Source: a virus. Taken from it: DNA of 38,454 nucleotides. The stretch spans positions 1 through 38,454 of the IMG/VR virus record IMGVR_UViG_3300047444_000171. One strand, 5' to 3'. The notes below the pieces were generated by a model. The model searched no databases. It saw only the letters and a list, made by a program, of their open reading frames with translations, and was not told the DNA's origin. The number at the start of each line of letters is the position of its first letter. Position 1 is the first letter of the stretch. Below are positions 7,036-34,406 of the stretch, piece by piece. Both the position numbers and the translations under genes were made by a program.

Positions 7036-9294
7036 TCAGCCCCCGATCCGCCGGTCCAGCAGCACGTCTTCCCAGGTCGCGAACTTGTTGAGGACGTCCT
7101 GCCAGGTCGCGCTCTCGGTGTCGATGTCCTGCCAGGTGCGGCCCGCCGAGCCTGCGACACCGATCTGGGTGGGCATGTCGACTTCCTTGAGCGGAAGCGT
7201 CCAGGTCCGGATCGGGTCGGAGGCGATCCCGCCGCCGCGTGCCGCGGTGGTCTGGCCGACGACGACGTACATGTCGGAGACGCCGTTGCCGGGCGCGACC
7301 TGCCACAGCAGGACGTTCCCGGTGTCCAGCAGCCAGTCCAGGGCGATGCGTTCGGCGTCGGACTGGGTAAAGACCTGGAGGTCGCCTTCCTGGCCGCCGC
7401 GCACGTCGGACAGGACCACCGGGTTACGCCGGCCCCGGACGCGCAGCACGGACTGGGTGATGTTGCGCTGCCAGTCCGGCCCCTTCGCAACCATGATCTT
7501 CAGGTTGCGCTGCGGGCTGGACGGGTCCTTCAGCCACGCGTACTGCGGGTCCGGGTTGGCGAGGGTGACGGTCTGCGAGGTGCGCTGTTCGATCAGGGTG
7601 CCGGTGGAATCGCGGGTCTCGACGTAGTAGAAGACGGCCGTGCCGAGCGGTGCTTCGTAGTCCTCGACGATCATCTCGGCGCCAGTGATGAGCTGGGACT
7701 GGATGAGCCCGGCGCTGCCGCGGACGAGGGTGCGGGTGCCGTCGGCGAGCTGGCGCCAGATGGTGATGTAGTCGCCGATCGACAGCTCGCGCAGCGTCAG
7801 GGTGATCGACGCGGTGTCGTTGTTGGTGGAGCCGTCGGCGGTCGCCTCGATCTGAGCCATGCTCGGCCACAGGCTGACCTGGTCGAGCCGGAGCACGCTG
7901 TTCGTCGCGGTCGCGGTCAGCGAGTACTCGACGGCCGCCTGCGTCGCGCCCGTCGGGGCGGTGAAACTGTCGTCGGTCTGCCACCAGTTGGGCGTTGGGG
8001 CCGCGCCGGAGGCGGAAGAGGTGGTGCCGAGGTCGGTGTTGGTGGCGGAGTACCAGCGCACCGAGCGGGTCCAGGTCCAGCCGCCCGCCGAGACGTTGGA
8101 GAACGTCTCCAGCCGGAACCCAGTCCCGGCGGCGCCTGCGGCCAGCGGGAACTTCGCCGAGCGGATCACCGACGTGGTCGCCGTGGTGGAGGTGACGGTT
8201 CCGCAGTAGGCGCCCCCGAAGAAGAAGGTGCCCCACGGTGTCGACCTGCTGACGACCGCGACGCCAGAGACGGTCGTCCAGCCTGCGACGCCCTGCTCGA
8301 AGGAGAAGTCGGCGTAGGGCAGGATGCTGCCGGTGTGCACCTTCGGGGCCGTCGTGATGACGACTCCGTCGGCGCGCACGACCTGTGCCGCTGTGCCGGC
8401 GGTGATACCGATGGCCACGTCGCAGCTGGCAGTGCCGGCCGGGGCGACCGCCGAGACGAACTGCCGGTACCAGCCGGTGCCGGGCGCGGACAGGTTCGAG
8501 CGGGTCGCGGACAGCTGGGTGCCTACCGCGTTCTGGTAGCGCAGCTCGATCCAGCAGGTCGAGCCCGAGGTGGGCGGATTGATGTAGGCGTAGGCGAAGT
8601 ACTCGGTCCCGGCTGATGCCGCGGGCCAGTCGGTCGTGCGGGTCCAGGCGTCCCCGTTGGCAGTGACGGTCATTGCCAGCACCTGGCCGCCTGCCAGGTA
8701 GTTGTCGACGGCCCAGGACACCATCGGGGTCTGGACGGCGATGGTGCAGTTCTGCTCGTTGAGCCAGTCCCCGATGCCGCGTTCCATCGTCTCGGTGGAG
8801 AACGCGAACATGTTGCCGGTGGTGCGGATGGGGAAACCGAAGTACACGTTCTCGAAGTAGTTGATCACTCCGGCGGCGCCGGGAGTCATCGCCGAGACGA
8901 CGACCTGCGCGGAGGCCGCGTTCGTCGGGGGGATCGCGGCCACGGCGATCCGGTGCCACGTCGCCGACGCCGACGACGTGGTCACCGACCACGAAATGCT
9001 GATCTCCGTGTTCGCGGCGGTCAGCCAGCGGATTCCGATCCGCTCCGGGACCGTTGCACCGGACGCGTCGGCGAAAGCTTCGTACTCGTAGTCCTGGTCA
9101 GTGACCACCGGGTAGGAGGCGACGGTGCGGGCCTGCATCTCTCCCGCCGCCGACGAGGTGAGCTTGAGGCAGCCGTCCCCGTTCCGGCCGCCGCTGCCCA
9201 GACCGATGGTGCAGTTGGTCTTGGCTACCCAGCCGCTCGTGTTGGGGTCGATGGACTCGGTGACCGAGGACAGGAAGTTGCCGGGGATCGCCAC
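7036..9294 (-). CDS. Large minor tail protein with carbohydrate-binding-like domains
   Basis: A 752-residue protein. The GTG at 9294 is chosen because GGAGGTAACT precedes it and it lies two bases after the tape-measure stop. The open frame upstream of it is only an antisense-like shadow of the tape measure. At least three beta-sandwich units of about 150 residues occupy residues 1-480, each with Trp/Tyr-rich strands of the kind seen in carbohydrate-binding modules (for example the NYFENVYFG and RLDQVSLWPS endings). Residues about 490-752 form a tail-tip domain ending TWEDVLLDRRIGG. It follows the tape measure, the usual place for a distal tail or baseplate protein. Binding of cell-wall sugars is inference. 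Confidence 0.78.
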   Translation of the reverse strand: MAIPGNFLSSVTESIDPNTSGWVAKTNCTIGLGSGGRNGDGCLKLTSSAAGEMQARTVASYPVVTDQDYEYEAFADASGATVPERIGIRWLTAANTEISISWSVTTSSASATWHRIAVAAIPPTNAASAQVVVSAMTPGAAGVINYFENVYFGFPIRTTGNMFAFSTETMERGIGDWLNEQNCTIAVQTPMVSWAVDNYLAGGQVLAMTVTANGDAWTRTTDWPAASAGTEYFAYAYINPPTSGSTCWIELRYQNAVGTQLSATRSNLSAPGTGWYRQFVSAVAPAGTASCDVAIGITAGTAAQVVRADGVVITTAPKVHTGSILPYADFSFEQGVAGWTTVSGVAVVSRSTPWGTFFFGGAYCGTVTSTTATTSVIRSAKFPLAAGAAGTGFRLETFSNVSAGGWTWTRSVRWYSATNTDLGTTSSASGAAPTPNWWQTDDSFTAPTGATQAAVEYSLTATATNSVLRLDQVSLWPSMAQIEATADGSTNNDTASITLTLRELSIGDYITIWRQLADGTRTLVRGSAGLIQSQLITGAEMIVEDYEAPLGTAVFYYVETRDSTGTLIEQRTSQTVTLANPDPQYAWLKDPSSPQRNLKIMVAKGPDWQRNITQSVLRVRGRRNPVVLSDVRGGQEGDLQVFTQSDAERIALDWLLDTGNVLLWQVAPGNGVSDMYVVVGQTTAARGGGIASDPIRTWTLPLKEVDMPTQIGVAGSAGRTWQDIDTESATWQDVLNKFATWEDVLLDRRIGG

Positions 9295-9296
9295 AG

Positions 9297-12200
9297 TTAC
9301 CTCCGTCCGGCGGCGAGCGTGGCCGTCAGGCTGCCGATCTGCTGATGGACCTCGCCCCGCACGTGGCCGAGGAAGGTGCCGCTGTCGAGGTAGAGGTCGC
9401 CCTCGAACACCCCGCCGCCCGGGGAGGGGTCGGCGGCCAGCCGCACCAGAGCGTTGGCCTGCTGTGTCGTGAACACCGGCTCGGGCCTGCCCGTGCCGTT
9501 GTAGGCGAGGTTCATGCCGGGCTGGAGGTAGCCGCCACTGTCGTAGCCGTGCCCTTGGCCGAGGAACGACAAGGACGGCCCGTAGGTATGTTTGGCGTAG
9601 TTGAGCGCGGCCAGCAGGTTGTCGTAGCCGTTGAAGATGTCGCCGTGACCAGGGAACTTGTAGGCGTTGAACGTGGCGCTGATCGTCTGCATGAGGCCCT
9701 TGGCGAGGTCTCCGGTGATGTTGTTGATGTCGCCGATGTTGCCCTGGACCGCACGCTCGTTGCCGCCGGACTCGGTCTCGATCTGCCGCAGGATCCGGGC
9801 GACCATGTCCGGGCTTGTCGATAGGCCGTTCGCCGCGAGGGCCTGAATGACCTGAGGTGTCCACCGGGTCACGCCGGAGCCGGACGGGGCGCCGACGCCG
9901 CCTCCGCCCGAGCCGCCGCCGAAGAACGATCCGACCGACGACACCGCACTGACGATCTTGTCTTTGAGGCCGCCGACGATCTTGATCGGGAACTGGGTGA
10001 TCACCTTGCCCATCGGGAACGTGCCGACACCGTCGGCGACCTTGGACAGGATCGGCTTGACGAGGTCGGTCCAGATTTTCGACGGGTTGGCAATGAGGTC
10101 GGCGCCCTTCGCCGCCCAGTCGATGCCGGTGCCGACGACGTCGCCGACGGTGTCCTTGGTCCAGTTCCAGGCGGACTTGAGGCCGCCGAGGATGCCGCCG
10201 TCGTCCATGAGCTGGGTGCCCGCCGCGGCGTGCAGGGCGAGCGCCCGGTCCCGATACTTGGGGTCGGTGGGGATGACGTACTCGGGGTAGGCGGGATTGC
10301 CCTCGCCGACGATGGCGGTGGGCCGGTTCGTGACCATCGGTCGGGCCGGACCCCAGCCGGGGGCGAGCGTGCCACCGGCAGCCAGGAGCTGGGGCGCGTC
10401 GGGAAGTTTGCCGAGGCCGACAAAGCCGGCGACCTTGTCCCAGACCGCTTTGATGCCGTTGGTGTACACCCACTTGATCACGAAGTTGACGGGCGCCTTC
10501 GTCAGATCGACGATCTTGCCCCAGGCCACACCGATCGCGTCCTTCGCGGCGCCGAAGGCCTCACCGACCAGCCCGACCGCCGACTTGATGCTGTCGAACA
10601 CGGGCTTCAGCCCGTGGTCATACAGCCAGGTCGCGGCCGAGGCGATCCCGCTGAACACGGGCTGGATGGCGTTCTGCCACAGCCACGTGGCCACAGCCGC
10701 GATACCGCGGAACGCGGGAGCCAGGGCGTTGTTCCACAACCACATGCCGATGGAGGCCACGAGCTGGAACTCGGCGACCATCAGATCGAAGTACGGCTTG
10801 ATCATGTTCTGGTAGAGCCAGACCGCAACCGTGGCAATGCCGCTGAAAGCGGGCTGAATGGCGTTCTGCCACAGCCAGGTAGCGATGCTGCCGACCCACT
10901 TGAAGCCATCGACGAGATAGGCCAGATAGGGCCTGAGCCCCTGGTTCCACAGCCACGTCGCGCCAGTGGCGATAGCCCGGAAAGCGGGGCCGATCGCGAC
11001 ATCCCACAACCAGGACGCGATGGCACCGACGGCACGGAACGCGAGGATCAGGGGCGTGATCAGGACGACGAAAATGATCGCGAACAGGATCCGGGCACCC
11101 AAAGAGATCGCGTTCCACACGGGCTGGAGAACGTTCTGCCACAGCCACACCGCCGCCGTCCCCACCGCATGGACCGCCACGACGAGTGCGTTGAACACCG
11201 GCTTGAGCACGTTGTTCCAGGCCCACAGTGCTGCGGTCCGGATGGCCAGCCAGGTGAGCTGTACGACGATGCGGAAATTGGTCCAGTGGTTGTAGGCGTA
11301 GATGACCGCCACGACCAGCGCCACAACCGCCGTGATGATCAGCCCGATCGGGTTGGCACGCATCGCCACGTTCAGCGCCCACGTCGCGATGGTCCACAGG
11401 CGGGTCGCGACCAGCACCAGATACATGCCCTGAACGAGCCACGGCAGGGTGGTGGCCACTGAGGCGATCCCGCGCGCGAGAGCCCCCAGGATCACCAGCG
11501 CCGGGCCGGACAGAGGCGACAGGGCGTGGGAGACCTGGAACAGGGCAGCCGCGACATCGCGCAGAGTGCCCGCCAGGACCGGAGCCATCCGGGAGGCGTA
11601 GGCCAGGAACTGCTCGAACGCCGGCGAACCCTTCAGCCCCGCAGCCCAGTTGGCGAAGCGGGCGGTGAGGGCACCGAAGCGGGCGCCGAACTCGGCCAGG
11701 TGTGGCAGGAAGGCGTCGATGATGCCGACCATGCCTTTGAAGATGTTGCCGAACCCGACACCCAGGCCGAGGATCGCAGGAGTCACCGAGGTAGCGAGAT
11801 CCTGCTTGAACGTCTTCCACCACGGACTGCGGAATCCGACCGACGCGCGGTCCTGCAGAACCTTGATGGCCGTCGCCGCCGCCAGGACGAACGGGGTCAG
11901 CGACGGCAGGGCCGCCCGCAGGCCGAGGATCGCCCGCGTGAAGATCCCCATCACCTGCGGCTGCAGGCTCACCGACCAGGCCTTGAACGCATCCCGCAGC
12001 GACAGGAACGCAGTGAACGTGCCGCGCGCCGCCGGGGTCAGCTTGTCCAGGGCCTGCTGATACTGGGCCTGCGCGACGGCAGCCTGATTCACACCCCCGG
12101 CCGCTGAAGCGGACGCGGAGGCAATCGAGCGCTGAGCCGAGGCGATGGAGTCTGCCGCCTGAGCCTGGGCCTGCGCTGCGGCACGCTCCGAGTCGGCGAC

Positions 12201-16476: not shown

Positions 16477-16830
16477 CTACCCGGTGACCAAAGCCAGAGC
16501 AGCAACTACCGGGCCGGTCGAACCCGTGAACGGCGACCGGAACGCGCCTGCTTGACCGTCGACCTCGTACAAGACGCCGGCCACACGCACCCGGTCGGTG
16601 GCCCGGATGTCGGTGCCTGCCGGGGCGTACAGCGTCAGCCCGACGATGACCGTGTCCCGGCCTTGCACAATTTCGGTACTGCCGGTCCCCGTACCGCCCC
16701 GCGGTGCGATCCCGCAGCCAGAAACCGTGACCTCGACGGGCGAGCCCGCTACATCGTTGCCGTAGGCGTCACGCGTCGGCGGGCCAGGGCGCACAATCGT
16801 GACGGTATCCCCGTTAGCCGGCGCGTACAC
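16477..16830 (-). CDS. Head closure / head-tail stopper protein
   Basis: A 117-residue beta-rich protein starting MYAPANGDTVTIVRPGPPTRD. The YGNDVAGSPVEVTVSGCGIAP segment and the later GTDIRATDRVRVAGVLYEVDG match the small beta-barrel stoppers of the SPP1 gp16 / HK97 type that seal the portal after packaging. GTG start at 16830 has GGAGG six bases upstream. The start overlaps the end of the GT4 gene by 17 bases. Position after the adaptor and before the gp10-like protein fits the connector order. Confidence 0.75.
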   Translation of the reverse strand: MYAPANGDTVTIVRPGPPTRDAYGNDVAGSPVEVTVSGCGIAPRGGTGTGSTEIVQGRDTVIVGLTLYAPAGTDIRATDRVRVAGVLYEVDGQAGAFRSPFTGSTGPVVAALALVTG

Positions 16831-17818
16831 GGCCGACCTCCTCTATCGACTCGCACCACGCCGCCAGGTCGGCGACAGGGTCCAGTTGCCTGGAGCGCAT
16901 GCGGGCTTTGCGGGCCGCAGCCCGATAGGCGACCGGGCCGTCCAGCGTCTCGATCGCCGCCTGCCACGCCTCGGTGTCGCCGCGGTCCACGAAGATCCCC
17001 GCACCGGCGAGGGACTCCCGTAGGCCGTCCGTCGGGTGTGCGATGACGGGGATGCCCGACGCCATGGCCTCCACACCGACACGGCCCCAGGATTCGTAGT
17101 CGGAGGGCATCAGCAGGATGCGAGTGCGGGCATAGACCTCGTCGCGCATCCGCTGGCCGCTCATGTGGTCGAGGACCAGCACGTTGTCGAGGTCGGGCGG
17201 CTGCTGCTCGCCGTAACCGCCGCGCACGGCCAGGAACTTGCGGTCCGGCATCCGCTTTGCGAGCTCTCCCAGCACCCCGATTCCCTTGGTGGCTGTGCAG
17301 TTGACCAGAGTGATGCAGTCGCCGGGCTTCGTCGCATAGTCCGCGGCGTGTACCGGCGGACGGACCACCAATAGCCGGTCCGGGCGCACCGGGGCAGACG
17401 CGAACGCGGTCTCGGCTTCGGCGCGCATCCACTCACTGTTGACCACGGCCAGCGCCGTCGACCCGGTAACCAGGGGCTCCCAGGTGAGGTCGAACGTGTT
17501 GTGGCACACGACAACGAGAGGCACCCCGTGCCCGCGTGCCAGATCTGCCGCCAGTGGCACGTTCTCCAGGTGGCTGACCATCACGTGCGCGCGGGCCACC
17601 GCCAGCGTGAAATCCTGGCCGGCCGCCTCCGGGATGACGCGGACCCCGTCGAGTTCATAGGGCTCTGTGCGCTCCGACCAGGTCGACAGCCACACCGTCG
17701 CTCGATGTCCACGTACCGCGAGGGCGCGCAGCATCTCGTGCAGCGCCCACTCGGCGCCTGCGTTGTGATCCGGCGGGTAGGCGTGGACTCGCGCCACGAC
17801 GTCCAGTGGCCCGGTCAC
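16814..17818 (-). CDS. GT4-type glycosyltransferase, copy B
   Basis: A 334-residue GT-B fold glycosyltransferase. The N-terminal lobe (about 1-165) starts VVARVHAYPPDHNAGAEW and includes MVSHLENVPLA. The C-terminal lobe (about 170-334) has the nucleotide-sugar signature YESWGRVGVEAMASGIPVI, an EX7E motif, and HPTDGLRESL. The enzyme would move a sugar from an activated donor to an unknown acceptor. The gene lies inside the head-tail connector cluster. It starts GTG, overlapping the adaptor stop as GTGA, and overlaps the stopper gene by 17 bases. It is clearly homologous to the copy at 18425-19438. The likely acceptor is a virion protein; this is inference. Confidence 0.88.
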   Translation of the reverse strand: MTGPLDVVARVHAYPPDHNAGAEWALHEMLRALAVRGHRATVWLSTWSERTEPYELDGVRVIPEAAGQDFTLAVARAHVMVSHLENVPLAADLARGHGVPLVVVCHNTFDLTWEPLVTGSTALAVVNSEWMRAEAETAFASAPVRPDRLLVVRPPVHAADYATKPGDCITLVNCTATKGIGVLGELAKRMPDRKFLAVRGGYGEQQPPDLDNVLVLDHMSGQRMRDEVYARTRILLMPSDYESWGRVGVEAMASGIPVIAHPTDGLRESLAGAGIFVDRGDTEAWQAAIETLDGPVAYRAAARKARMRSRQLDPVADLAAWCESIEEVGRVRAG

Positions 17819-18441
17819 CGGAACCTCACCATGCTCATGCCCTGCTTGCGCCGGTAGCGGGCCAGGATCTGCCGGTCGGCCTCGGTCAGCATGACGCCGG
17901 TGCCCACGCCGGTACCGTCCGTGCGGTAGCTGTAGGGGCCGATCGTCTCGCCGGTCACGCCGCCCGCCATGGTCGGCGCGGTCAGCGTCCGCAGCACCAC
18001 CGCCGCGACCACCGCCATGACGTCAGAAGGAACGTCGGCGGCACCGTGGCTGTAGGTGACGCGGTAGGTGTTGGGGTAGGCGACGACATCGTCCTCGTAC
18101 CAGAGCTCCGGCAGGTTGACGACCGGGCTGTTGGGGGCGGTGCGGATGGTGTCCAGGCCGTCCCACTGCCAGCCGACGACCGGAATATCGGGCGCGCCCC
18201 CGGCTCCGATCGCCACCACCGCCGTCACGTCGATCACCGGCCGTTGCGGCAGACGGATTTCGCCCTGCTGGCCGCGTACCACGATCGTGTCGTGGTCGAC
18301 GCGCTGGAAGTCCTGCCGGGTGTAGGCGCGGACCAGGGCGGACGCGTCGGCCAGCAGGGCCGTCGCGCGGTCTGCTTCCGGGCCGGTCAAGGGCCGTCCG
18401 AGGCGGGCCTCCACCGCGGTGAGATCAGCAAGGGCGTCCAC
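17815..18441 (-). CDS. Head-tail adaptor protein
   Basis: A 208-residue protein. GTG at 18441 is chosen since it overlaps the previous glycosyltransferase by 17 bases, the same geometry as the second glycosyltransferase pair. The sequence starts MDALADLTAVEARLGRPLTG and continues with a helical stretch ATALLADASALVRAYTRQDF, typical of HK97 gp6-like adaptors that bind the portal. A small beta insert (about 70-140) follows, then helices to the C-terminus. It should form the ring between portal and stopper. Position is right for the family. Confidence 0.82.
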   Translation of the reverse strand: MDALADLTAVEARLGRPLTGPEADRATALLADASALVRAYTRQDFQRVDHDTIVVRGQQGEIRLPQRPVIDVTAVVAIGAGGAPDIPVVGWQWDGLDTIRTAPNSPVVNLPELWYEDDVVAYPNTYRVTYSHGAADVPSDVMAVVAAVVLRTLTAPTMAGGVTGETIGPYSYRTDGTGVGTGVMLTEADRQILARYRRKQGMSMVRFR

Positions 18442-19438
18442 GTTGCACCACCCTCTCCATCGCCGTGCACCACGCGTCGAGATCGGCGCCCGGATCAAGT
18501 TCTACCGCCCGCTCGGCGGCGGCTCGGGAGGCAGCCGGATAGATCTTGGGTGAGGACAGGCGGCGGACTGCGGCCTCCCAGGCGTCGAGGTCGTCGCGGT
18601 CCGCGAACGTCCCCGCACCAGCGAGGGACTCCATCAACCCGGGTGTCGGATGGGCGATCACGGGGATGCCCGAGCACATCGCCTCGACAGCCACGCGCCC
18701 ATAGGACTCGTACACCGACGGCGCCAAGAGCACTCTGGTGCGCCCGTAGACGAGCTTGGCCATGTCGCCGCCGGGCGTGTGCTCGACGATCTCGACGTTC
18801 GGCAGATCGTCGCGGATGATCTGGGTGCCGTAGCCGCCGACCACTCCGAGGAAGCGCTGCCGCGGCATGCGTTCGGCCAGGGCGTAGAAGACGCGGGCGC
18901 CTTTCTCCTCGGTCAGGTTGATCAGGGTGATGTGATTGCCGCGCGCCGCCCGGTAGTCCTCCACGCGGACCGGAGGCCGCACCACAATGCCGGGCGGCCG
19001 ATTCCGGTTCGGCTCATGGAACGCCCACCACTCCTCGACGTCCCGCCGCATCCACGCCGTGTTGTACACGACCAGCCCCGGGGAACCCTTGGCCAGCCAT
19101 TCCTTCGTGAAGTCAAAGGTGTTGTGCAGCAGATGCACCACGGGGATCCGGTTCAGCTCCCCCAGGACCGACGCCCGCGGGGTGTTCTCCAGATGGGTCA
19201 CGATCACATCGGCGCGACCCTCACCGCGCATCCACCGGCCCGGATCGCCCTTGTCCCGGTACGGATGCACCTGCACACCGTCCAAGTCGTAGCCGAGCCG
19301 GACACCATCCGGCCTCGACAGCAGCACATCCACCCCATGGCCGCGGGCCGCAAGTTCCCGCAGCAGGCCGTGCGCAGCCCACTCCGCCCCTGCATTGTGG
19401 GATGGCGGATAGGCGTGGAACATCGCCAGGACGCGCAC
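18425..19438 (-). CDS. GT4-type glycosyltransferase, copy A
   Basis: A 337-residue GT-B glycosyltransferase. The GTG at 19438 is preferred because GGAG lies six bases upstream; a GTG seven codons earlier lacks a site. Motifs parallel those of copy B: FHAYPPSHNAGAEW at the start, VTHLENTP, LLHNTFDFTKEW, an EX7E motif in YESYGRVAVEAMCSGIPVI, and HPTPGLMESL. It sits immediately after the major capsid gene and before the adaptor. The two copies are paralogues separated only by the adaptor gene. A donor sugar cannot be told from sequence. Capsid or connector glycosylation is the most economical reading. Confidence 0.87.
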   Translation of the reverse strand: MRVLAMFHAYPPSHNAGAEWAAHGLLRELAARGHGVDVLLSRPDGVRLGYDLDGVQVHPYRDKGDPGRWMRGEGRADVIVTHLENTPRASVLGELNRIPVVHLLHNTFDFTKEWLAKGSPGLVVYNTAWMRRDVEEWWAFHEPNRNRPPGIVVRPPVRVEDYRAARGNHITLINLTEEKGARVFYALAERMPRQRFLGVVGGYGTQIIRDDLPNVEIVEHTPGGDMAKLVYGRTRVLLAPSVYESYGRVAVEAMCSGIPVIAHPTPGLMESLAGAGTFADRDDLDAWEAAVRRLSSPKIYPAASRAAAERAVELDPGADLDAWCTAMERVVQRGRPC

Positions 19439-19507: not shown

Positions 19508-20458
19508 CTACGACAGGTGGGTGGAGGCCTGGACCACGCCGAACGGCGAACGGGTCGCCGAGTCGGAGTTGAGGCGGGTCGCCGGGTTGGCGGTGGCGAA
19601 CGCCACGCGCATGACGACGCGCATCGCCACCGAGTCCTGCTGCATCAGGTTCAGGATGACCTTGCCGGAGTCGTCCGAGATGACACCCTCGGTGAACATC
19701 TTGAAGCTGATGTCCTGCCGCAGGCCGATGATCGCCTTCGACCAGTCGCCCATGATGAGCTCGGCCTCAGTCGCCGACCACGCCCCGTTCGTCAGCTCCG
19801 ACATCGGATAGCCGTACAGCGTCCCGCCGGGCGTGCCCTGCAGGTTCGGCTGGTAGATCGGCACGCCCTGGGCAGAGCGGATGGCGTTGAGCCTCCACGT
19901 CAGCCCCGGACGGGACACGAACCCGTTGATCGCGAACCCGTCCTGGGAGACCTTCTCCGCACACGACGACACGTCGACAGCAAGGTCCGCGCCCGTACCG
20001 GCCACAACGACGTTGCCCGCCGCGACAGCCGTCTGGTAGATCGCGGTCGGCCAGGTCGACGGCTTGTCCGTGCCGAACAGGCCCGCGCCGTCGATCTTCC
20101 CGCCGATGGCCTCGACCAGCCGGGGACGGACCTGGTCCCAGATCGGCATCTGCGCGTCGTCCAGGTAAGCCTCGGGGATCGGGACGATCGCCGCGATCTC
20201 CTCAACGATCAGGTCGACGTTCTTCCAGTCCTGTGACGTGGTCTGCTTCAGCCCGGTGTCGCCGCCCACGAAGTAGGCGAGCGGCATGACGTCGAGGACC
20301 GGCTGCCGCTGGGTCTTCGTGGACAGCGGAATCTGCTTGGCCCGGGTCAGGAGCGCCGACATCGACGGCAGCTCCTGGATGATCTCGGCCGAGACCGGGG
20401 TCGGTACCAGCGGGTCATTCGAAGCGTCCCGGCTGATGAGAGAGTTGTACGTGGCCAC
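19508..20458 (-). CDS. Major capsid protein, HK97 fold
   Basis: A 316-residue protein starting MATYNSLISRDASNDPLVPT. The GTG at 20458 has AAGGAG six bases upstream. The sequence carries the HK97-type plan: an N-arm, the E-loop and spine helix region (about 30-110, VLDVMPLAYFVGGDTGLKQT and VDLIVEEIAAIVPIPEAYLD), the P-domain helix around QVRPRLVEAIGGKIDGAGLF, and the A-domain with GVPIYQPNLQGTPGGTLYGY. There is no large N-terminal delta domain, in line with the separate scaffold. Copy number should be very high, and its gene is flanked by hairpins. No protease gene was found beside it. Confidence 0.92.
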   Translation of the reverse strand: MATYNSLISRDASNDPLVPTPVSAEIIQELPSMSALLTRAKQIPLSTKTQRQPVLDVMPLAYFVGGDTGLKQTTSQDWKNVDLIVEEIAAIVPIPEAYLDDAQMPIWDQVRPRLVEAIGGKIDGAGLFGTDKPSTWPTAIYQTAVAAGNVVVAGTGADLAVDVSSCAEKVSQDGFAINGFVSRPGLTWRLNAIRSAQGVPIYQPNLQGTPGGTLYGYPMSELTNGAWSATEAELIMGDWSKAIIGLRQDISFKMFTEGVISDDSGKVILNLMQQDSVAMRVVMRVAFATANPATRLNSDSATRSPFGVVQASTHLS

Positions 20459-23823: not shown

Positions 23824-25473
23824 CTACCCGAACCCATGAACCCGGCCCGTCCGGACCCGCTTCTTCTGCGCCTTCGCCCAGTCCGGCGACGCCAACAACG
23901 CCCTGCGCGCCATGTCCGCCAACTGCATCGCCGCGAAGGCGTCCACCTTCTTAGGGCTCTCCCTGCTCTCCTTACCGAAGGACACACCCCAACGATTGGG
24001 GCGACGCCGGCAGTTACCGACATGCCGGGCCAGCACCGGGTGCCCGGTGTGCGGCAGACGGCCGTCCTCGATGGCCTGCACCAGAGCCTCAGTCGCCAAG
24101 GTCAATTCCTGCTGGCGGCCCCGCATGTCCCAGCCCACCGCCGACTTCGGTGAGGCCCGCACCACGAGCTCGTCCCGGTAAGTCTCGGTCCATTCGTCGA
24201 TGTATGACTCCCACAGCTTGACGTCGGCGAAGAACGCCCGAACGTTCCACCGGCCGAACGCGTGCGCCACCATGTCGGAGACCTGCTTGCGGTCGACCTC
24301 CCAGCCCTTGGCCGCCGGACCGTCCGGGCGCTCCCAGATCCCCAGCGGCTGAACCAGACGGTCCGACAGCCGCATCGCAATCAACGCGGTGGCATCGTCA
24401 GTCTTGCCGCCGTCGAACCCGAGCACGATGTCATCGCCGTCCTCCAGCCGATGCTCCGAGGCGCACTTGGCCCAGTCGCCAGGGTCCAGCAGGGCGTCCT
24501 CGGCAGCCACTGGCTGGTTCAGCCAGTACCGGCGCGAATCCGACGGCGCCGACTGCGGATCCCAGATCTCGGCGATGATGCCGTCCAGATCCATCCAGTC
24601 CGCAGCCGGCCCGTAGGCCGCCTTCAGCCCGGCAAGCAGGGCATCGCGGTCCGCGAGATCCGTACCGTCCGGAGCCTGCCGGTGATCGAAGAGCAGGCCA
24701 GCCGCGTCCGCGTCCCTGATCCGGCCCTCACGAATCGCCTTGTAGTAGGTGTGGGTGGCCTCGGCCACCGAGTCCTGGCCAGGCTCGTACATCGTCGACG
24801 TCTCAAGGCACCACGGCTCAGCCTCTTTGCGCTTCCTCAAGTTCCGGCGGACCGTGCCGTGCATCCTGCGCAGCTCCGGCAGGACGTACAGGTGCGTTTC
24901 GTCGAAGACGGCGAAAGTCTCCTTGCCGCCGTCCTTGGCGGCCGAGCTGGCCGTGGACGGGGTGATCTCGCCGCGCTGCTGGTGCAGGACGATCCTCGAC
25001 GACGTCTGCGCCGACTTGCCGATGTCGATGCCCGGAAAGTCGTCGCCATGGTGCTCGACGAGGTGCTCCAGCATCGTCGAGACATTGTCGTAAGTATTGC
25101 CCGACTGTCCCTCTTCCGTGGCCAGACAGCGGATGAACGGCGACCTGACCGGCCGCCCGACCGGCTCCCCGTCCGCGTCCCAACCAGCGAACCGCACCGG
25201 GAAGAGCGCCTCGGCGACCACCAGCATCCCGGCCAGCTCCGACTTCGCCCGGCCCTTCGCTCGGGACAGGAACACCCGGCGGTACATCCGTCGGCCCGTT
25301 TCCGGGTCCAGCCGGTAGGCCTTGACGATGAACGCGTAGAACTCGTCGTCCAGCTCGATCGGATCGCCTATCACATCACCGGGGCCGTGGCACAGGTACT
25401 CCTCGATGTGCCGGACGATCTCGTGACCGAGGGATGGGAACTCGCCTTCATACTGGGCACCGCGCCACGGCAT
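23824..25473 (-). CDS. terL: Terminase large subunit
   Basis: A 549-residue ATPase-nuclease that drives DNA packaging. The ATPase domain has a variant Walker A, SRAKGRAKSE (residues 70-79), and Walker B with FAVFDETH (Asp191, Glu192). The RNase H-like nuclease domain has LGFDGGKTDDAT (Asp354), AFFADVKLWE (Asp417) and KKVDAFAAMQ (Asp511). These are the motifs of a functional headful- or cos-type terminase. ATG at 25473 has AGGGGG upstream and follows the small-terminase stop by eight bases. It meets the portal gene with a 15-base gap. Confidence 0.96.
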   Translation of the reverse strand: MPWRGAQYEGEFPSLGHEIVRHIEEYLCHGPGDVIGDPIELDDEFYAFIVKAYRLDPETGRRMYRRVFLSRAKGRAKSELAGMLVVAEALFPVRFAGWDADGEPVGRPVRSPFIRCLATEEGQSGNTYDNVSTMLEHLVEHHGDDFPGIDIGKSAQTSSRIVLHQQRGEITPSTASSAAKDGGKETFAVFDETHLYVLPELRRMHGTVRRNLRKRKEAEPWCLETSTMYEPGQDSVAEATHTYYKAIREGRIRDADAAGLLFDHRQAPDGTDLADRDALLAGLKAAYGPAADWMDLDGIIAEIWDPQSAPSDSRRYWLNQPVAAEDALLDPGDWAKCASEHRLEDGDDIVLGFDGGKTDDATALIAMRLSDRLVQPLGIWERPDGPAAKGWEVDRKQVSDMVAHAFGRWNVRAFFADVKLWESYIDEWTETYRDELVVRASPKSAVGWDMRGRQQELTLATEALVQAIEDGRLPHTGHPVLARHVGNCRRRPNRWGVSFGKESRESPKKVDAFAAMQLADMARRALLASPDWAKAQKKRVRTGRVHGFG

Positions 25474-28366: not shown

Positions 28367-29248
28367 TCAGGCTGTGAGTGCGCGCCTGATGCCTTCTTCG
28401 AGTTCGATCTTCGGCTGGTAGACGTCGAGCATGCGCTTGGGGTCGCAGACGCGGTGGTGAACGCCCTGCGGCGCAGTCGCAAGGTGCTTGATCTCCGGCG
28501 TGTATCCGGCGGCCGCGGTTACGAGGCCAGCGAGTTCGTCGAACGAGACCGCTCTGCCCCAGCCGAGGTTGATCGGCCCGTGCACGCCTTGGTCGACGGC
28601 TGCGAGGGTGGCGCCGACGAGGTCGTCGACGTGGATCCAGTCGCGTGTCGAGCTGCCGTCTCCCCACACCTCGAACGGATCCTGCCTGGCTCTGGCTCGG
28701 GCGATGAACGCCGGGAACGGGTAGGCCTCGTGCTGGTCCGTGCCGTAGCCGGAGAACGGCCTGAGCACCGTCATGCGCGTACCCTCGGCCGCCGCGTACT
28801 GGCAGAGCTGCTCCCCGGTCAGCTTGGCCAGTCCGTAGGTCGCGTCGGGCCGGCCGAGCTGCTCGTAATCGATGTCGTCCTCAACGAGCCGGCGGATGTC
28901 GCCGGGTTGCTGGAGCGCGACCGGGTAGGCGGCCGAGCTAGAGAAGTACACGGCGCGCGGCGTACCCGAGCGGGCGAGCCAGCGCATGTACCAGGCGTCG
29001 AGCGCCAGGTTTGTGGCGACTCCGAGCGGGGAGCCGTCGATGCTGGCCCGGCCTCCGACGATGGCCGCGCAGTGGATCGCAAGGTCGAAGTGCTCGCGAT
29101 CCCGTAGGAAGAAGTCGAGGGCGTCTCTGCCATAGACGATCGGGGAGACGTTGAGGTCGATCGCAAGAACGTCGTCACCCCGCTCGCGCAGGGCCTGGTG
29201 CAGGTGACGGCCGACGAACCCGGCGGCACCGGTCAGGAGGACGCGCAT
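28367..29248 (-). CDS. NAD-dependent sugar epimerase/dehydratase
   Basis: A 293-residue extended short-chain dehydrogenase. GAAGFVG (residues 7-13) binds NAD(P). SSS (103-105) and YGLAK (Tyr138, Lys142) form the catalytic triad. The C-terminal part has LRPFSGYGTDQHEAYPFPAF, RDWIHVDDLVGA and GPINLG, as in nucleotide-sugar epimerases. It probably alters a UDP- or GDP-sugar. ATG at 29248 overlaps the previous stop as TGATG. It lies with a methyltransferase and a glycosyltransferase, so it may supply a special sugar for attachment to phage or host structures. Confidence 0.9.
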   Translation of the reverse strand: MRVLLTGAAGFVGRHLHQALRERGDDVLAIDLNVSPIVYGRDALDFFLRDREHFDLAIHCAAIVGGRASIDGSPLGVATNLALDAWYMRWLARSGTPRAVYFSSSAAYPVALQQPGDIRRLVEDDIDYEQLGRPDATYGLAKLTGEQLCQYAAAEGTRMTVLRPFSGYGTDQHEAYPFPAFIARARARQDPFEVWGDGSSTRDWIHVDDLVGATLAAVDQGVHGPINLGWGRAVSFDELAGLVTAAAGYTPEIKHLATAPQGVHHRVCDPKRMLDVYQPKIELEEGIRRALTA

Positions 29249-29571
29249 CAGTCCTCCCCGCATTCGGTGGCAGTGTGCCAGAGGCCGTCGTGGACGGCTT
29301 CCTCTGGAAACCGTCTGACGGTTGGCGAGCTAGCCCAGTCGACGCGTTCACGGAAGTCATGGGCGTGGGACCCGAAGATCAGCAGGTCGGCGACCCATTC
29401 ACCTTCGTAGCCGTTAGAGCAGCCGTCGTAGGGTTCGCGGCGCAGATGGTGCGGTAGCGAGGTGACGAACGCGGCGCGGCAGGGCGCTGTGGTGATCGTA
29501 CCGTCGGCGTGCTGCGTAATAGCCGTGTGGTGGACGACGTCACCGACACGCACAGGGGGTTGGGCGTTCAT
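29248..29571 (-). CDS. Hypothetical protein in the modification cassette
   Basis: A 107-residue protein starting MNAQPPVRVGDVVHHTAITQ. It has a beta-rich first half and several aromatic and His residues (GEWVADLLIFGSHAHDFRER) but no motif I can name. The ATG overlaps the methyltransferase stop as ATGA and the stop overlaps the epimerase start as TGATG, so all three are translated together. It may be an accessory of the sugar-modification pathway. Function is unknown. Confidence 0.6.
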   Translation of the reverse strand: MNAQPPVRVGDVVHHTAITQHADGTITTAPCRAAFVTSLPHHLRREPYDGCSNGYEGEWVADLLIFGSHAHDFRERVDWASSPTVRRFPEEAVHDGLWHTATECGED

Positions 29572-30164
29572 GCGGCTTTGACTGCCTTGTACACGCCCCA
29601 CGGCAGCTCGCTGTCGACGGGCTCCAGGCCGATGCGGGTGCAGGCATCGGCCTGCTGCTCGCGGGACCAGGTCGTGACGCCGATCCAGTGGCTGGCTTCC
29701 GAAGGCTGGTCGCTGAGGGGCCAGTCGAGGACGAGCAGGCCGCCCAGCTTCGTCGCCGCTCGAAGCTTGGTGATGATGTCGAGGCAGTCGGCATAGCTGT
29801 GGTGGATGAGGACGGCGAGCGCATACACGGCGTCCATGCGGCGCCGCCCGAGGTGCGCGGCAATGCCGTCGGCCGCAGCGTGCACGGTCGTTACGTCAGG
29901 GGCGCGGTCGGTGAGCCAGTCGAGCATCCGCTGCGACGAGTCGACGGCCGTCACCTCGTAGCCGAGCCCCGCCAGGGGGATGGCGACGCGGCCGTCGCCA
30001 CAGCCGAAGTCCATGACCTTGGCGCTGGCGGGGATGACGGTGGCGAGCATGGCGGCCTGCTGCTGCCCGGACTCCCAGTACGCGTCTTCGGAAACGCGGC
30101 GGAGCGGGTGGATCGCGGCGGGGTCGGCCTGGTCCCAGGCCTGGATGACGTCAGCGGCAGTCAC
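29568..30164 (-). CDS. SAM-dependent methyltransferase
   Basis: A 198-residue class I methyltransferase. VMDFGCGDGR (residues 50-59) is motif I and binds S-adenosylmethionine, and YEVTAVDSS (about 68-76) is motif II. LGGLLVLDWPLSD (about 141-153) lies near motif IV. The fold resembles small-molecule or sugar methyltransferases rather than DNA methyltransferases: there is no DPPY or PC motif. GTG start at 30164 has GAGGAGG upstream. It overlaps the next gene by four bases and sits with glycosyltransferase and epimerase genes. A methylated sugar is a plausible product. Confidence 0.82.
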   Translation of the reverse strand: MTAADVIQAWDQADPAAIHPLRRVSEDAYWESGQQQAAMLATVIPASAKVMDFGCGDGRVAIPLAGLGYEVTAVDSSQRMLDWLTDRAPDVTTVHAAADGIAAHLGRRRMDAVYALAVLIHHSYADCLDIITKLRAATKLGGLLVLDWPLSDQPSEASHWIGVTTWSREQQADACTRIGLEPVDSELPWGVYKAVKAA

Positions 30165-30213
30165 GGGGGCCTCCTCGTTGACTACGATGGTTCCGAAGGA
30201 GCATCGATCGGCA

Positions 30214-30282
30214 GATCACCGGTCGATCACCGGCGCCCCGCGCGAACCCGTGCTCCCGGGTTGGGTTGAACCCAGGGGCGCC
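30214..30282 (-). ncRNA. Three-way-junction-like RNA element and tandem repeat
   Basis: On the minus strand GGCGCCCC (30282-30275) pairs perfectly with GGGGCGCC (30239-30232). Two hairpins fit inside: TGGGTT-C-AACCCA, and AACCCG with CGGGTT around GGAGCA. The second can replace part of the first, so a switch is conceivable. An 11-bp tandem repeat, GATCACCGG twice at 30214-30222 and 30225-30233, overlaps it. It lies between the glycosyltransferase stop (30290) and the methyltransferase start. It may be a terminator, RNA switch or protein-binding site; there is no tRNA anticodon arm or CCA end. Confidence 0.45.
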
Positions 30283-30289
30283 ACCAAGT

Positions 30290-30997
30290 TCAGCTCGCCT
30301 CGACGAGCAACCGGAGCTTCTCAAGGTCGGTGTCGAGGCCGCCCTCATCCCGGTAGGCGTAGTAGGCGGCGCTGTCGGCTCCGACCTGTTCGGGGCTGTT
30401 GCACTCCTCGTAGCCCTGATCTAGGTCCGCCTTGCCCGCCGCCGGGTGGAGGTGCTCGATGACCATGTCGTCGAGGTAGGTGATGCGTCCCATGCCCTTG
30501 CCCCACTCCAGCCACACAAGATCCACGCACAGGTGCACGAATGCTGAGGGCGCCATGAATCCGAGCGTCGTGACGATGTCGGAGGTCATGGCGACGGCTG
30601 TGGGCATCTGCTCGCCCATCAGCAGGTCGTTGCCGTAGACGATGCCGGGGCCGCCGGACAGGCAGATGCGGATGCGGGCGTCCCAGGCCTGCTCGGCAAC
30701 ACGGGGCCGGTGATCATCGCCCATGAATCCGAGGAACCGGTACTTCGATGCGGCCTTCACGGCCTGCTGGTTGAGCGTGCCCACCAGCCGACGCCGCTTC
30801 CCGAACACGAACCGCACCCGGCCGTCAGCCTTGTACGTGGCGGCGTGCGCCTTGTACCCGGCGAGCTCGGGGTCGTCGGTGTCCACGGCGAACAGGACGT
30901 CCGCGGTGGCGCCGGTGTCGTCCCACGCCTGCATGATCTCGGGGATCGCCTGCGGACGGCCGCGGGTCGGGATGATGACGAGCAGATCGTCGGCCAT
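30290..30997 (-). CDS. GT-A family glycosyltransferase
   Basis: A 235-residue protein starting MADDLLVIIPTRGRPQAIPE, the opening of a GT2-like domain. FAVDTDDPELAGY follows, and GFMGDDHRPR (Asp94, Asp95) gives the metal-binding DxD-like motif. The last part, TYLDDMVIEHLHPAAGK, holds the acidic and His residues seen at the end of this fold. It would transfer a sugar from a nucleotide donor. ATG at 30997 has GAGAGGGGG upstream. It follows a fibre-cassette gene and precedes a methyltransferase, so it may act on fibre or virion proteins. A role in DNA modification cannot be ruled out. Confidence 0.85.
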   Translation of the reverse strand: MADDLLVIIPTRGRPQAIPEIMQAWDDTGATADVLFAVDTDDPELAGYKAHAATYKADGRVRFVFGKRRRLVGTLNQQAVKAASKYRFLGFMGDDHRPRVAEQAWDARIRICLSGGPGIVYGNDLLMGEQMPTAVAMTSDIVTTLGFMAPSAFVHLCVDLVWLEWGKGMGRITYLDDMVIEHLHPAAGKADLDQGYEECNSPEQVGADSAAYYAYRDEGGLDTDLEKLRLLVEAS

Positions 30998-31008
30998 GAC
31001 GCCCCCTC

Positions 31009-31302
31009 TCAGATCACGCGGATGCGGCCGGAGCGTTCGACGGGGGTCTCGGCTCCGGCGGTCCAGGTCGCCCACACCCAGTAGGTGCCGGGTGTCAGGG
31101 TGAGCGCGCCGCCGTCGGGACCGACCATGATGCGGGCGTACCCGGAGTGCCATTCGGCTGGATGCCAGTCCCCGCTCGCCGGGTCGCTGTTGCCTGCGAG
31201 GAACGCCATCTTCGGCGGATCCGTGAGCGTGACTGGGCTGCCGTCCGCGCTGGCCGTGACGGACACTTTGACGAACTCGGTGGACGTCGCTGCTAGGTCC
31301 AC
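31009..31302 (-). CDS. Small beta-rich protein after the repeat fibre
   Basis: A 97-residue protein starting MDLAATSTEFVKVSVTASAD (GTG at 31302, GGAGG upstream). It looks like a single immunoglobulin-like beta sandwich: SPVTLTDPPKMAFLAGNSDP and LTPGTYWVWATWTAGAETPV are typical strands. The start overlaps the end of the repeat fibre by 10 bases, so the two are coupled. It is probably a virion accessory, such as a fibre tip, chaperone or decoration unit. Function is unknown. Confidence 0.6.
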   Translation of the reverse strand: MDLAATSTEFVKVSVTASADGSPVTLTDPPKMAFLAGNSDPASGDWHPAEWHSGYARIMVGPDGGALTLTPGTYWVWATWTAGAETPVERSGRIRVI

Positions 31303-34300
31303 GGCGCACCCACCTCCCAGTCGCTGTCCGGTTCCGCGGTGTGCTGCTCGACGACGGGTTCGCCGACGGTCCAGCCGGTTTGCGGGCCACCCACGGTCCA
31401 GCCGGTGGCCGGGTCTCCGACGGTCCAACTGCCTTGCGGCTGGCCGACGGTGTAGTCGATGTCGTCGGGCAGGCCGCCTGCGGCCAGCGGCAGGGCGGTG
31501 TCGTGTTCAAGAGCGCCGACGAGGACGAGCCGCTTGGCCGGGGTGAGCGGACGGGCAGTGCTGGTATCGGCGGCCGGCGTGAGCACGATCCGCTTGAGCG
31601 TGCCGAGCGGACGGGCCGTATCAACGCCCGACGCGGGGCCGAGTCCTGGGGAGCCCGACGTGCTGAGGGCTTGCGCGGTGCCGGTTTCCAGGGCGGGATC
31701 GAGCGGCAACTGCTTGCGTCCGGTGACGGCTTGAGCTTGCTCGATGCCGTCGGACGTGGTGAGCGGGCGGGACTTGGTTGCGTGTAGGGGCTGGGCGGTG
31801 CCTGTCTCCACGGCAGGTGCGAGCCGTCCGGGGACGGTCAGCGGCTGCGCCTGGCCTGTTTCGGCGGCGGCGCCGAGCGCGGTCGTTTTGACGGCGGCCA
31901 GCTGCTGCGCGGCACCGGTGTCGACTGCGGGGCCGGCCGTGGCCTGCTTCCGCCCGGTGAGGGCTTGTGCCGTCTCGGTGCTGCCCGCGGTGCCGACTGG
32001 CTCCGTCTTGCTGCTGCCGAGCGGTTGTGCCGCGCCGGCCTCGTCTGCCGCATTCAGGGCGGCGGTCTTGACGCCGACGAGGGGCTGGGCGGTGTCGGTC
32101 GTCTCACTGGAGGTGAGCGGCCGGGCCTTGGCCGTACCGAGCGGCTGTGCCTGGCTGGTCTCCTGGGCGTTGTCGAGCCGCCCGGGGATACCGAACTGCT
32201 GGGCTTGCCCAGCTTCTTCTGCGGTTCCCAGGAGGAGCGTCTTGCGGGCGCCGAACGCTTGGGATGCGTCGCTGGCGAAGGCGGTTGTTGCAGCGTTCCG
32301 CTTGGTACCGGCGGCGCTTTGTGCCGCTTCGGAGGCCGAAGCGCATCCGAGGCCGAAGGCCTTGACCGTGCCCAGCGGTTGGGCTTCGTCGGTCGAGGCT
32401 GCACCGGTGAGGGGCCGCTTGGTGCCGAGCGAGAGCGCGGCCTCTACGCTCTGCGCCGCGGCCAGCGTCGCGTGCTTGGCTCCCTGCAGGGGTTGGGTAG
32501 CTTCGGTCGCTTCAGCCGGGGCGAGTGCGGCCGTCTTCACTGCCTGGAGGCCCTGCGCCGCGTCCTCGCCCGACGCTGGGGCGAGAGCTGCGGTCTTGGC
32601 CGCGGTGACGGTCTGCGCCGCCTCTGCGGCTTCGGCCGTCCCGGCGGCTGTGCGCTTGGCTGCGCCGAGAGGCTGGGCCTGGCCGGCTTCGTCCGCCGTG
32701 CCGAGTGCGGCCTGTTTGGCCGCCGCTGCGGGCTGTGCGGTCTCGGTGGCTGCCGCTATGCCGAGCGGGGTCGTCTTGGATGCCGGGAGCGTCTCGGCGC
32801 CGGCGGTCTCCTGCGCCGTCCCCAACGCCGCGACGATGGGCGGGGTGTTGAGGTTGTCGAACTCGACGAAGTCGGTCGTGCCCGAGTCGCGGTGGGCGAT
32901 CAGCTGGAGTTGCAGCGTCGTGCTGCTCACCCAGGCGGGGCTGCTGTCGGCGCGCTGCACCGTCCAGGTCACACCGTCCGCGCTGGTCTCCCAGTACAGG
33001 AACCCGCTGGTCTCGCGGATGCGGAGCCAGGCGTGGTCGACGGGGTCGTAGGCGAGGAACACGTCGCCGGGGTCGGCCCAGCCGGTCCGCATGAACAGCG
33101 ACAGAACACCCACGGTGGTGTCGACGTTGACGCCAATGTCCGTACCGGCAGTCCCCGACAGGATGACGATCTGGGAGGCGGCAGCGTTGGCGGCGGGCCA
33201 CATGCGGACGGACACCTGGCTGCCTGCGAGGGTCCAGGCTGCGGCGGTGGTCAGGTTGTTGTAGTTGGTGTCGCACTGAATGCGGGCGTGGCCGCCGCTC
33301 TCGTCGTACACGCCACCGGACGCCGGCCACAGAGCGGTGTCGATGGTGTCGGAGTCGAACCGGTCCTTCAACTGCTCCAGCGGACGCCCCGCGCTTTGCG
33401 CGGTGCCCGTCTCGGCGGCCGGCGTAAGGCTGGCCGTCTTGCTGGTCGCGGAAAGCTGCGCCGTCTCGAACGACGAGGCGGCCCCTGCGGGCAGGACCTT
33501 GCCGCGTCCGAGGGCTTGAGTGGCGTCGGTTTCGCTGGCGGCGCCGAGGCTGTGCGCCTTCGATCGCGGGAGGGGCTGTGCGGTCTCGGTGGAGCTGGCG
33601 GTGCCGAGCGTCCGGGTCTTGCTGCGGCCCAGGGCCTGTGCGGTGTCGGTCTCGGTCGCAACGCCCAGGGCGTGGGTCTTCGTCCGGCCGAGCGCCTGGG
33701 CGGTGTCGGTCTCGGAGGCGAGGGTGAGGGTCTGCGTGACCGTGGTGACCTTGCGGACGCGCCGTACCCGGCCGGGCCCCCAGGTCACACCGGGGCTGTC
33801 CTCGGTGGTGGTGCCGGTGCCGCCGGTCAGGGTGAAGCTGTTGCCGGAGTAGTCGGCGGTCTCGCTGTGGGTGAGCGGGTACCAGGCTTTGAGGTTGGCG
33901 GTGCGGGCGGGCAGCCAGGAGAGGCGTTCCTGCTCGAAGTCGGCGGCGCCGAGGGTGACGCCGGTCCAGATCTTCACTCCGGCGATGGCGCCGTTGAGCC
34001 AGTCGCCGTTTTCGTGGTGCTCGCCGAGGATGATGCTGGTGGCGGTTGTGGTGGTGCTGCCGGTGGTCCAGGTGACGGCGGTCGGGGAGCTGGTGGTTGT
34101 CAGGGCGCGGGCCCACAGGGAGCCGCTGGCGCCGTTGGTGGAGCAGGAGATGAAGTACCAGGTGCCGACGGTCAGCGCGAATGATCCGAAATTGTTGACT
34201 TCGTCGTAGAAGCGGAGGCTGGTGCCGTCGACGTCGGTGGCGATCGACCAGTATTCGGTGGCGCTGGAGCCGATCGACAGGAACGTGGAGACGGCGTTCC

Positions 34301-34406
34301 GGTCTGTGCTGATCTTCAGCCAGCCGCAGGCGGAGATCTGTGACTGTGATCCCAGGGACGTGGTGGTGTTGTAGTCCTGGCCGTCTGCGGAGAACCTGAC
34401 GGCCAC
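31293..34406 (-). CDS. Giant repeat protein, probable tail fibre
   Basis: A 1037-residue protein. Residues 1-215 form a LamG/ConA-like domain (LKAWYPLTHSETADYSGNSF near its end). Residues 227-346 hold six and 527-987 hold 23 copies of a 20-residue repeat with consensus LGxAxETxTAQPLxxxKxxx. The two blocks are split by a second beta-jelly-roll-like domain (about 347-525, DRFDSDTIDTALWPAS to DFVEFDNL). The C-terminus has short WTVGxPxxG repeats. The repeats are Ala/Thr-rich and lack hydrophobic cores, suggesting an extended rod or fibre. GTG or ATG at 34406 follows a 9-base gap after the previous stop. It is far from the tail-tip genes, unusual for a fibre. Confidence 0.75.
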   Translation of the reverse strand: MAVRFSADGQDYNTTTSLGSQSQISACGWLKISTDRNAVSTFLSIGSSATEYWSIATDVDGTSLRFYDEVNNFGSFALTVGTWYFISCSTNGASGSLWARALTTTSSPTAVTWTTGSTTTTATSIILGEHHENGDWLNGAIAGVKIWTGVTLGAADFEQERLSWLPARTANLKAWYPLTHSETADYSGNSFTLTGGTGTTTEDSPGVTWGPGRVRRVRKVTTVTQTLTLASETDTAQALGRTKTHALGVATETDTAQALGRSKTRTLGTASSTETAQPLPRSKAHSLGAASETDATQALGRGKVLPAGAASSFETAQLSATSKTASLTPAAETGTAQSAGRPLEQLKDRFDSDTIDTALWPASGGVYDESGGHARIQCDTNYNNLTTAAAWTLAGSQVSVRMWPAANAAASQIVILSGTAGTDIGVNVDTTVGVLSLFMRTGWADPGDVFLAYDPVDHAWLRIRETSGFLYWETSADGVTWTVQRADSSPAWVSSTTLQLQLIAHRDSGTTDFVEFDNLNTPPIVAALGTAQETAGAETLPASKTTPLGIAAATETAQPAAAAKQAALGTADEAGQAQPLGAAKRTAAGTAEAAEAAQTVTAAKTAALAPASGEDAAQGLQAVKTAALAPAEATEATQPLQGAKHATLAAAQSVEAALSLGTKRPLTGAASTDEAQPLGTVKAFGLGCASASEAAQSAAGTKRNAATTAFASDASQAFGARKTLLLGTAEEAGQAQQFGIPGRLDNAQETSQAQPLGTAKARPLTSSETTDTAQPLVGVKTAALNAADEAGAAQPLGSSKTEPVGTAGSTETAQALTGRKQATAGPAVDTGAAQQLAAVKTTALGAAAETGQAQPLTVPGRLAPAVETGTAQPLHATKSRPLTTSDGIEQAQAVTGRKQLPLDPALETGTAQALSTSGSPGLGPASGVDTARPLGTLKRIVLTPAADTSTARPLTPAKRLVLVGALEHDTALPLAAGGLPDDIDYTVGQPQGSWTVGDPATGWTVGGPQTGWTVGEPVVEQHTAEPDSDWEVGAPWT
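31430..33730 (-). repeat. Tandem 60-bp degenerate repeats (29 units) within the fibre gene
   Basis: The coding sequence contains 29 units of 60 bases, each specifying about 20 residues: six between about 33727 and 33367, and 23 between about 32827 and 31445. Conserved positions are a Leu-Gly start, E-T/S-x-T-A-Q in the middle and a Lys near residue 17. The units are diverged from each other, so the expansion is old or under selection for variation. A few units are 18-19 residues long. Confidence 0.85.

Follow-up and report, generated by a model that had tools for sequence, protein, structure and literature searches.

Why does a phage carry a glycosyltransferase, a methyltransferase, and a nucleotide-sugar enzyme directly behind its fiber gene, and on what would these enzymes act? 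These questions are raised by a locus on a 38,454-bp IMG/VR contig, the whole of which was analyzed and is called the window here. From the sequence, a dedicated virion-glycosylation system with a methylated or epimerized sugar had been proposed, with the fiber as the acceptor and DNA modification as the alternative. Here, we examined the locus, its relatives, and the known systems that resemble it.

Organization of the locus

Nearly all genes of the window lie on the minus strand. The genes relevant to the question are as follows.

31293-34406 (-), fiber, 1,037 aa; phrog_14065 (6e-106), weak Laminin_G_3 match
31009-31302 (-), fiber partner, 97 aa; 10-bp overlap with the fiber gene
30290-30997 (-), GT-A glycosyltransferase, 235 aa; phrog_14945 (9e-48)
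29568-30164 (-), class I SAM methyltransferase (MT), 198 aa; Methyltransf_25 (2e-12)
29248-29571 (-), small unknown protein, 107 aa; no phage match at E 0.1
28367-29248 (-), extended SDR of the NDP-sugar epimerase family, 293 aa; PF01370 (1e-39)
23824-25473 (-), terminase
19508-20458 (-), major capsid protein (MCP)
18425-19438 (-), first GT4, between the MCP gene and the head-tail connector; PF13692 (5e-11), phrog_26352 (2e-109), synteny
17815-18441 (-), connector
16814-17818 (-), second GT4, directly after the connector gene; PF13692 (8e-15)

The minus-strand order is terminase, portal, MCP, GT4, connector, GT4, major tail protein, tape measure, and endolysin, and the two GT4 enzymes are 51% identical to each other. 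Upstream of the terminase, in the direction of transcription, lie three small genes, the fiber, its partner, GT-A, MT, the 107-aa protein, and the SDR. The MT and small-protein genes overlap by 4 bp (ATGA), and the small-protein and SDR genes overlap by 1 bp (TGATG), with GGGGAGGAC upstream of the SDR start. No site like GGGGAGGAC precedes a longer SDR start at 29263. In the 125-bp gap between GT-A and MT, no promoter-like or terminator-like site was found.

The locus is real, and it is conserved in other genomes (see below). All six genes of the original prediction were recovered in place by gene calling, including the long repeat fiber and its partner on the same strand as the enzymes, together with the 4-bp and single-base stop/start overlaps joining MT, small protein, and SDR. 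The two GT4 enzymes that it mentions were recovered as well. The family assignments held for the SDR, the MT, and the glycosyltransferase, for which AlphaFold2 also returned a GT-A fold. The small protein is present as predicted, at a length of 107 aa rather than the 117 aa of the longest open reading frame.

The same phage is also found on a second IMG/VR contig. When positions 14,000 to 38,454 of the window were compared with known phages, the sole nucleotide matches were 150 to 180 bp of the MCP gene (82 to 83%) in the Mycobacterium phages JacoRen57 and NoShow (MK279840.1 and ON108645.1), and no match was obtained when phage records were searched with the cassette at the nucleotide level. 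The genus of this phage seems to be undescribed. ARAGORN called a tRNA-Leu (GAG) at 5478-5574 (+), antisense to the gene at 5947-5330, which is possibly spurious.

Conservation of the cassette

Viral contigs and bacterial genomes (one per species) served as the source of GT-A relatives, and near-identical copies were collapsed. This gave 41 distinct loci found by GT-A alone, from phages and prophages of Streptomyces, Actinomadura, and relatives; loci found through the MT were left out of this set as biased toward having an MT. The SDR lay downstream of GT-A in 38 of the 41 loci. Among the other three, two lacked it despite ample room (Kitasatospora and Micromonospora) and one was on a contig that ended too early. 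Prophages with cassette A are present, for example, in Streptomyces flavochromogenes NRRL B-2684, S. rishiriensis NBRC 13407, and S. olivaceus NRRL B-3009. An MT of one of three class I families occupied the gap between GT-A and SDR in 26 of the 38 loci (the window's family in 19, c41 in 4, and c34 in 3), and the remaining 12 had no MT in this slot. HNH endonuclease-like, exonuclease-like (Rv2179c), and small genes were also found there. GT-A and SDR are 70 to 83% identical and stay in the same place even in phages whose terminases differ greatly, and they form the core of what we call cassette A. The MT is about 80% identical in many relatives and is interchangeable with the two other MT families at its slot. 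A search for the same gene order had been suggested with the original prediction, and the order GT-A, (MT), SDR cannot be put down to chance since it recurs in dozens of other genomes.

Conservation was established in IMG/VR and GTDB contigs because BLAST searches of phage records were nearly empty for the MT (one weak match only) and the small protein (none at the threshold given above). GT-A homologues were present in 71 phage records, 63 of them of Streptomyces phages. Besides its own phage, the 107-aa protein has one relative (37% identical), which itself shows weak similarity to a small protein that is common in phages. This gene is sporadic rather than conserved and is probably a passenger.

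Predicted chemistry of the cassette enzymes

In the alignment of its homologues, GT-A has an invariant GDD(H) at positions 93 to 96 as well as an EH.HP motif; it has no Pfam or NCBIfam match. Since no credible match was obtained among the sequences of solved structures, a fold search was run. The AlphaFold2 model (pLDDT 90) has the GT-A fold. Its best PDB match by Foldseek was WrtF, a GDP-fucose fucosyltransferase (E 1.7e-10, TM 0.60), and its best viral match was Pas34 of phiAsp2 (TM 0.91); relatives by fold include the wall-teichoic-acid enzymes TarP, TarS, and RmlT. GDP-fucose as the donor is only suggested by the WrtF match, given its TM of 0.60 and the other GT-A enzymes close behind it.

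For the SDR, the nearest solved relatives were GDP-mannose 3,5-epimerase (GME, 1e-33), GDP-fucose synthase (1e-30), and MoeE5. The Tyr-x-x-x-Lys motif is intact, with Y138 and K142 invariant in 21 homologues. In GME, a Cys and a Lys (the Cys plus Lys/His pair) are needed for C3/C5 epimerization. The column of the catalytic Cys is an invariant Ala106 in the SDR family, and that of the Lys in GREKAP, the position mutated in entry 2c5e, is A, C, or D. A 3,5-epimerase reading was rejected because this acid/base pair is absent. With those residues lost and the Tyr-Lys pair kept, C4 chemistry (epimerization or reduction) is likelier for the SDR, judging from the known chemistry of its relatives, and a GDP- or UDP-sugar is a possible substrate. 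The earlier designation as an epimerase stands at the level of the family, whereas the epimerizing residue pair of the closest solved relatives is missing.

Link to the head genes

GT4 was found in 15 of the 17 GT-A-bearing virus contigs. Wherever the context was readable, it lay beside the MCP or connector gene, even when the MCP was only 25 to 28% identical. In the window's phage, cassette A adjoins fiber genes and not head genes. Homologues of its enzymes nonetheless occur within head operons: one locus (L264) has the order MCP, MT, GT4, GT-A, connector, and in another (L263), the GT4 gene shares 4 bp with the MT gene, in the midst of genes for head-tail proteins. The MCPs of both belong to phrog_10. 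We considered whether GT4 is a fixed component of the cassette and rejected this because GT4 also occurs without GT-A and SDR: among 16 further GT4-bearing contigs, both were present in 1 and neither in 15, so that GT-A and SDR again go together. Thus, GT4 and the cassette may act separately.

Two further observations concern these genes. On another contig (L267, 5986-10238), an MT of the window's family follows the portal gene, and an MT of a second type (8605-9171) overlaps a GT4-like gene (9168-10238) by 4 bp, in the head genes. Four GT4 homologues (G017, G006, G011, and G002; L060 and L061) have one in-frame TAG within the aligned stretch, which could mark either a premature but natural stop or a site of readthrough.

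Exchange of the cassette

Two GT4-bearing contigs without GT-A and SDR (L145 and L146) carry a different set, cassette B, at the fiber-to-terminase locus. It comprises another GT-A, distantly related to that of the window (25% identical), a UDP-glucose/GDP-mannose dehydrogenase in which the Cys motif reads GG[HA]CHPRD, a member of the same MT family as in the window (47 to 50% identical), and one more glycosyltransferase, GT54. The type B set was also found between the partner gene and the terminase in L151/L257 and L258. In the set of loci found through the MT, 29 were of type A, five had the dehydrogenase or its glycosyltransferase, and none had both sugar enzymes.

On the terminase (terL) tree, the three type B rows amount to three changes, forced by well-supported (starred) branches, and L260 and L151 each fall among type A phages; L146 sits on a long branch and is not to be leaned on. 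With type B scattered among type A in this way, the cassette type has been exchanged independently of the packaging genes. In such a swap, the pair of SDR and GT-A would be replaced by the dehydrogenase and the other GT-A (with or without GT54), and the MT family would stay. It is a real possibility, though we would not yet bet on it, that these are "glycotypes," whole fiber-terminase cassettes swapped by recombination in temperate Streptomyces phages, with the result that the same proteins bear chemically distinct sugars in closely related virions. Within that tentative reading, the swap could be the viral counterpart of serotype switching of bacterial O antigens or capsules.

Comparison with known systems

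In the mycobacteriophage Che8, glycans are reported to be covalently attached to the MCP (Freeman et al. 2023, cited in PMC11256854). In Rhodococcus phages, a glycosyltransferase together with a methyltransferase has been read as indicating that the virion is glycosylated (PMC13313380). Che8 resembles the present system in being an actinobacteriophage with adjacent glycosyltransferases and a sugar-type O-methyltransferase (gp108, gp109, and gp110). It differs in that these genes lie at the right genome end, and none in the stretch covered is annotated as a nucleotide-sugar enzyme, whereas the glycosyltransferases of the window are split between head and fiber modules and the cassette includes an SDR (type A) or a dehydrogenase (type B). 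The GT-A, MT, SDR, and GT4 of the window had no significant BLAST-level match to Che8 gp108 to gp110. The homology runs instead through genes that accompany members of these GT-A or MT families elsewhere: gp108, a fusion of GT2 and a TylF-like O-methyltransferase (TylF/Methyltransf_24), is related to Pas33 of phiAsp2; gp109 and the GT54 of cassette B both belong to phrog_1721; and gp110 and Pas35 both belong to phrog_854 (the families of gp108 to gp110 and their relatives are phrog_14775/8858, phrog_1721, and phrog_854). BLAST E values in the Che8, phiAsp2, and fiber comparisons come from very small databases; the PHROG assignments do not.

The Actinoplanes phage phiAsp2 is similar in having a GT-A homologue that is 36% identical over the GT-A region, with two more glycosyltransferases (pas33 to pas35). 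In this phage, GT-A and a Methyltransf_24 domain are joined in one protein, Pas34, rather than encoded separately; the fusion is flanked by the two glycosyltransferases after the tail genes and has no adjoining SDR. The family of Pas34 (phrog_2675; L055 28936-30726) is labeled "DNA methyltransferase," which misleads. A sugar-type O-methyltransferase thus accompanies glycosyltransferases both as the class I MT of the 26 loci, the window included, and as the phiAsp2 fusion, and its substrate would be a sugar.

In Stanwilliamsviridae (Beuffert gp74 to gp76, and Coruscant), a GT-A homologue that is 40 to 42% identical lies beside another glycosyltransferase and abuts a cytidylyltransferase-like gene, a nucleotidyltransferase of the sugar-activating type; however, this cassette lies among DNA-metabolism genes and no SDR or MT adjoins it. 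GME and GDP-fucose synthase remain the best sequence relatives of the SDR among solved structures and share its Tyr-Lys pair, with the difference from GME that Ala and Ala/Cys/Asp replace the Cys and Lys. Bacterial O-antigen and capsule loci and the glycan genes of chloroviruses and megaviruses (PMC10117803 and PMC5408694) also have exchangeable or clade-specific sugar enzymes, glycosyltransferases, and methyltransferases, a likeness that concerns the way they work.

Proposed function and alternative explanations

Taken together, these genes probably form a late-expressed virion-glycosylation system with an exchangeable sugar-making part. The proposal of a dedicated system with a methylated sugar is thereby strengthened, by the recurrence of GT-A, SDR, and MT as a unit, the phiAsp2 fusion, the homologues in head operons, and the homology of partner genes to the Che8 glycosyltransferases. 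In our model, the GT4 enzymes beside the MCP gene would begin or lengthen a glycan on a protein of the virion (head or tail), and the fiber-terminase cassette would set which further sugar is added. The SDR would reshape a host nucleotide sugar at C4, as an epimerase or ketoreductase, GT-A would transfer the altered sugar, and the class I MT would O-methylate it.

Capsid or other head-tail proteins are favored over the fiber as the acceptor because GT4 stays with the head genes throughout and MT and GT-A can join it there. The fiber had been singled out as a natural acceptor, with GT-A placing a methylated sugar on Thr/Ser of its repeats. It consists of T/A-rich repeats and two LamG-like domains (14% T, 8% S, 18% A), matches, among phage proteins, only minor tail proteins of Streptomyces phages, and together with its partner directly precedes the cassette in the window and most relatives. 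The fiber could still be an acceptor on account of this neighborhood, and its Thr and Ser content agrees with that role. However, the gene upstream of the cassette changes between unrelated fiber types (repeat, collagen-like, and beta-helix-like) while the cassette stays constant, and related fibers with similar T/S content occur in Galactica and Spocter, both without GT-A. The head-operon homologues of MT, GT4, and GT-A point away from it as well, and a specific role of the fiber as acceptor is unlikely. Relatives of the 97-aa partner lie beside GT-A or GTB in many loci, and the partner adjoins both cassettes A and B. In Galactica (L029 8059-11833) and Spocter (L030 9086-12859), a T148 protein and the related fiber are located within the head module, between the MCP and the head-tail adaptor, near a gene annotated as "methyltransferase"; in the window, T148 protein and fiber lie upstream of the terminase, and the fiber module moves as a block.

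Other targets were also weighed. The enzymes might modify the host envelope (a wall polymer or mannosylated glycoprotein) and so alter receptors for other phages. This is the main rival because many relatives are found in Streptomyces genome contigs and because sensitivity to phiC31 is governed by glycosylation in the host: mutants of Streptomyces coelicolor affected in the synthesis of polyprenol phosphate mannose resist this phage (PMC5982138). The fold relationship to the teichoic acid enzymes points in the same direction. However, the genes are located among late virion genes, often in the head operon, and not in a lysogenic-conversion position, and homology leads to the Che8 glycosyltransferases. 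Moreover, in the loci inspected by gene calls, no flippase or lipid-linked-sugar glycosyltransferase gene lies between GT-A and SDR, in contrast to gtr-type seroconversion cassettes. We regard modification of the host surface as improbable. A passenger (moron) cassette, carried because late operons tolerate insertions and without a virion role, is very improbable. The varied genes collected in the slot between GT-A and SDR would fit it, but the high identity and fixed position of these two enzymes across divergent terminases do not, nor does a second cassette type that replaces the first rather than joining it. Glycosylation and methylation of phage DNA bases, the alternative raised originally, is the least likely reading and found no support. 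Some phages, such as the Shewanella phage Thanatos, carry sugar on their DNA bases (PMC12838424), and the PHROGs label of the phiAsp2-fusion family names DNA; this label is a misnomer for a Methyltransf_24 domain. No member of the thymidylate synthase/dCMP hydroxymethylase family was found in 19 related records, some of them fragments, with working controls, and base modification would leave the location with head and fiber genes unexplained. A Tet_JBP search was uninformative, as none of its controls gave a match.

Implications

Virion glycosylation of actinophages is a known general kind of system, described in a few mycobacteriophages with glycosyltransferases and a methyltransferase. On the genomic evidence, three features appear to be new: a nucleotide-sugar enzyme carried by the phage, the division of the genes over head and fiber modules, and the exchange of cassettes; the phage seems to make its own nucleotide sugar as well. 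The cassettes could supply new small enzymes that modify sugars, and for the phiAsp2-fusion family, labels such as "DNA methyltransferase" in PHROGs and GenBank are suggested to be misleading. If virion glycosylation by these genes is true, the purpose of the coat would be directly testable, for example in adsorption, stability, or evasion of host or predator lectins and antibodies, and phage particles would vary in their surface sugar as bacteria do.
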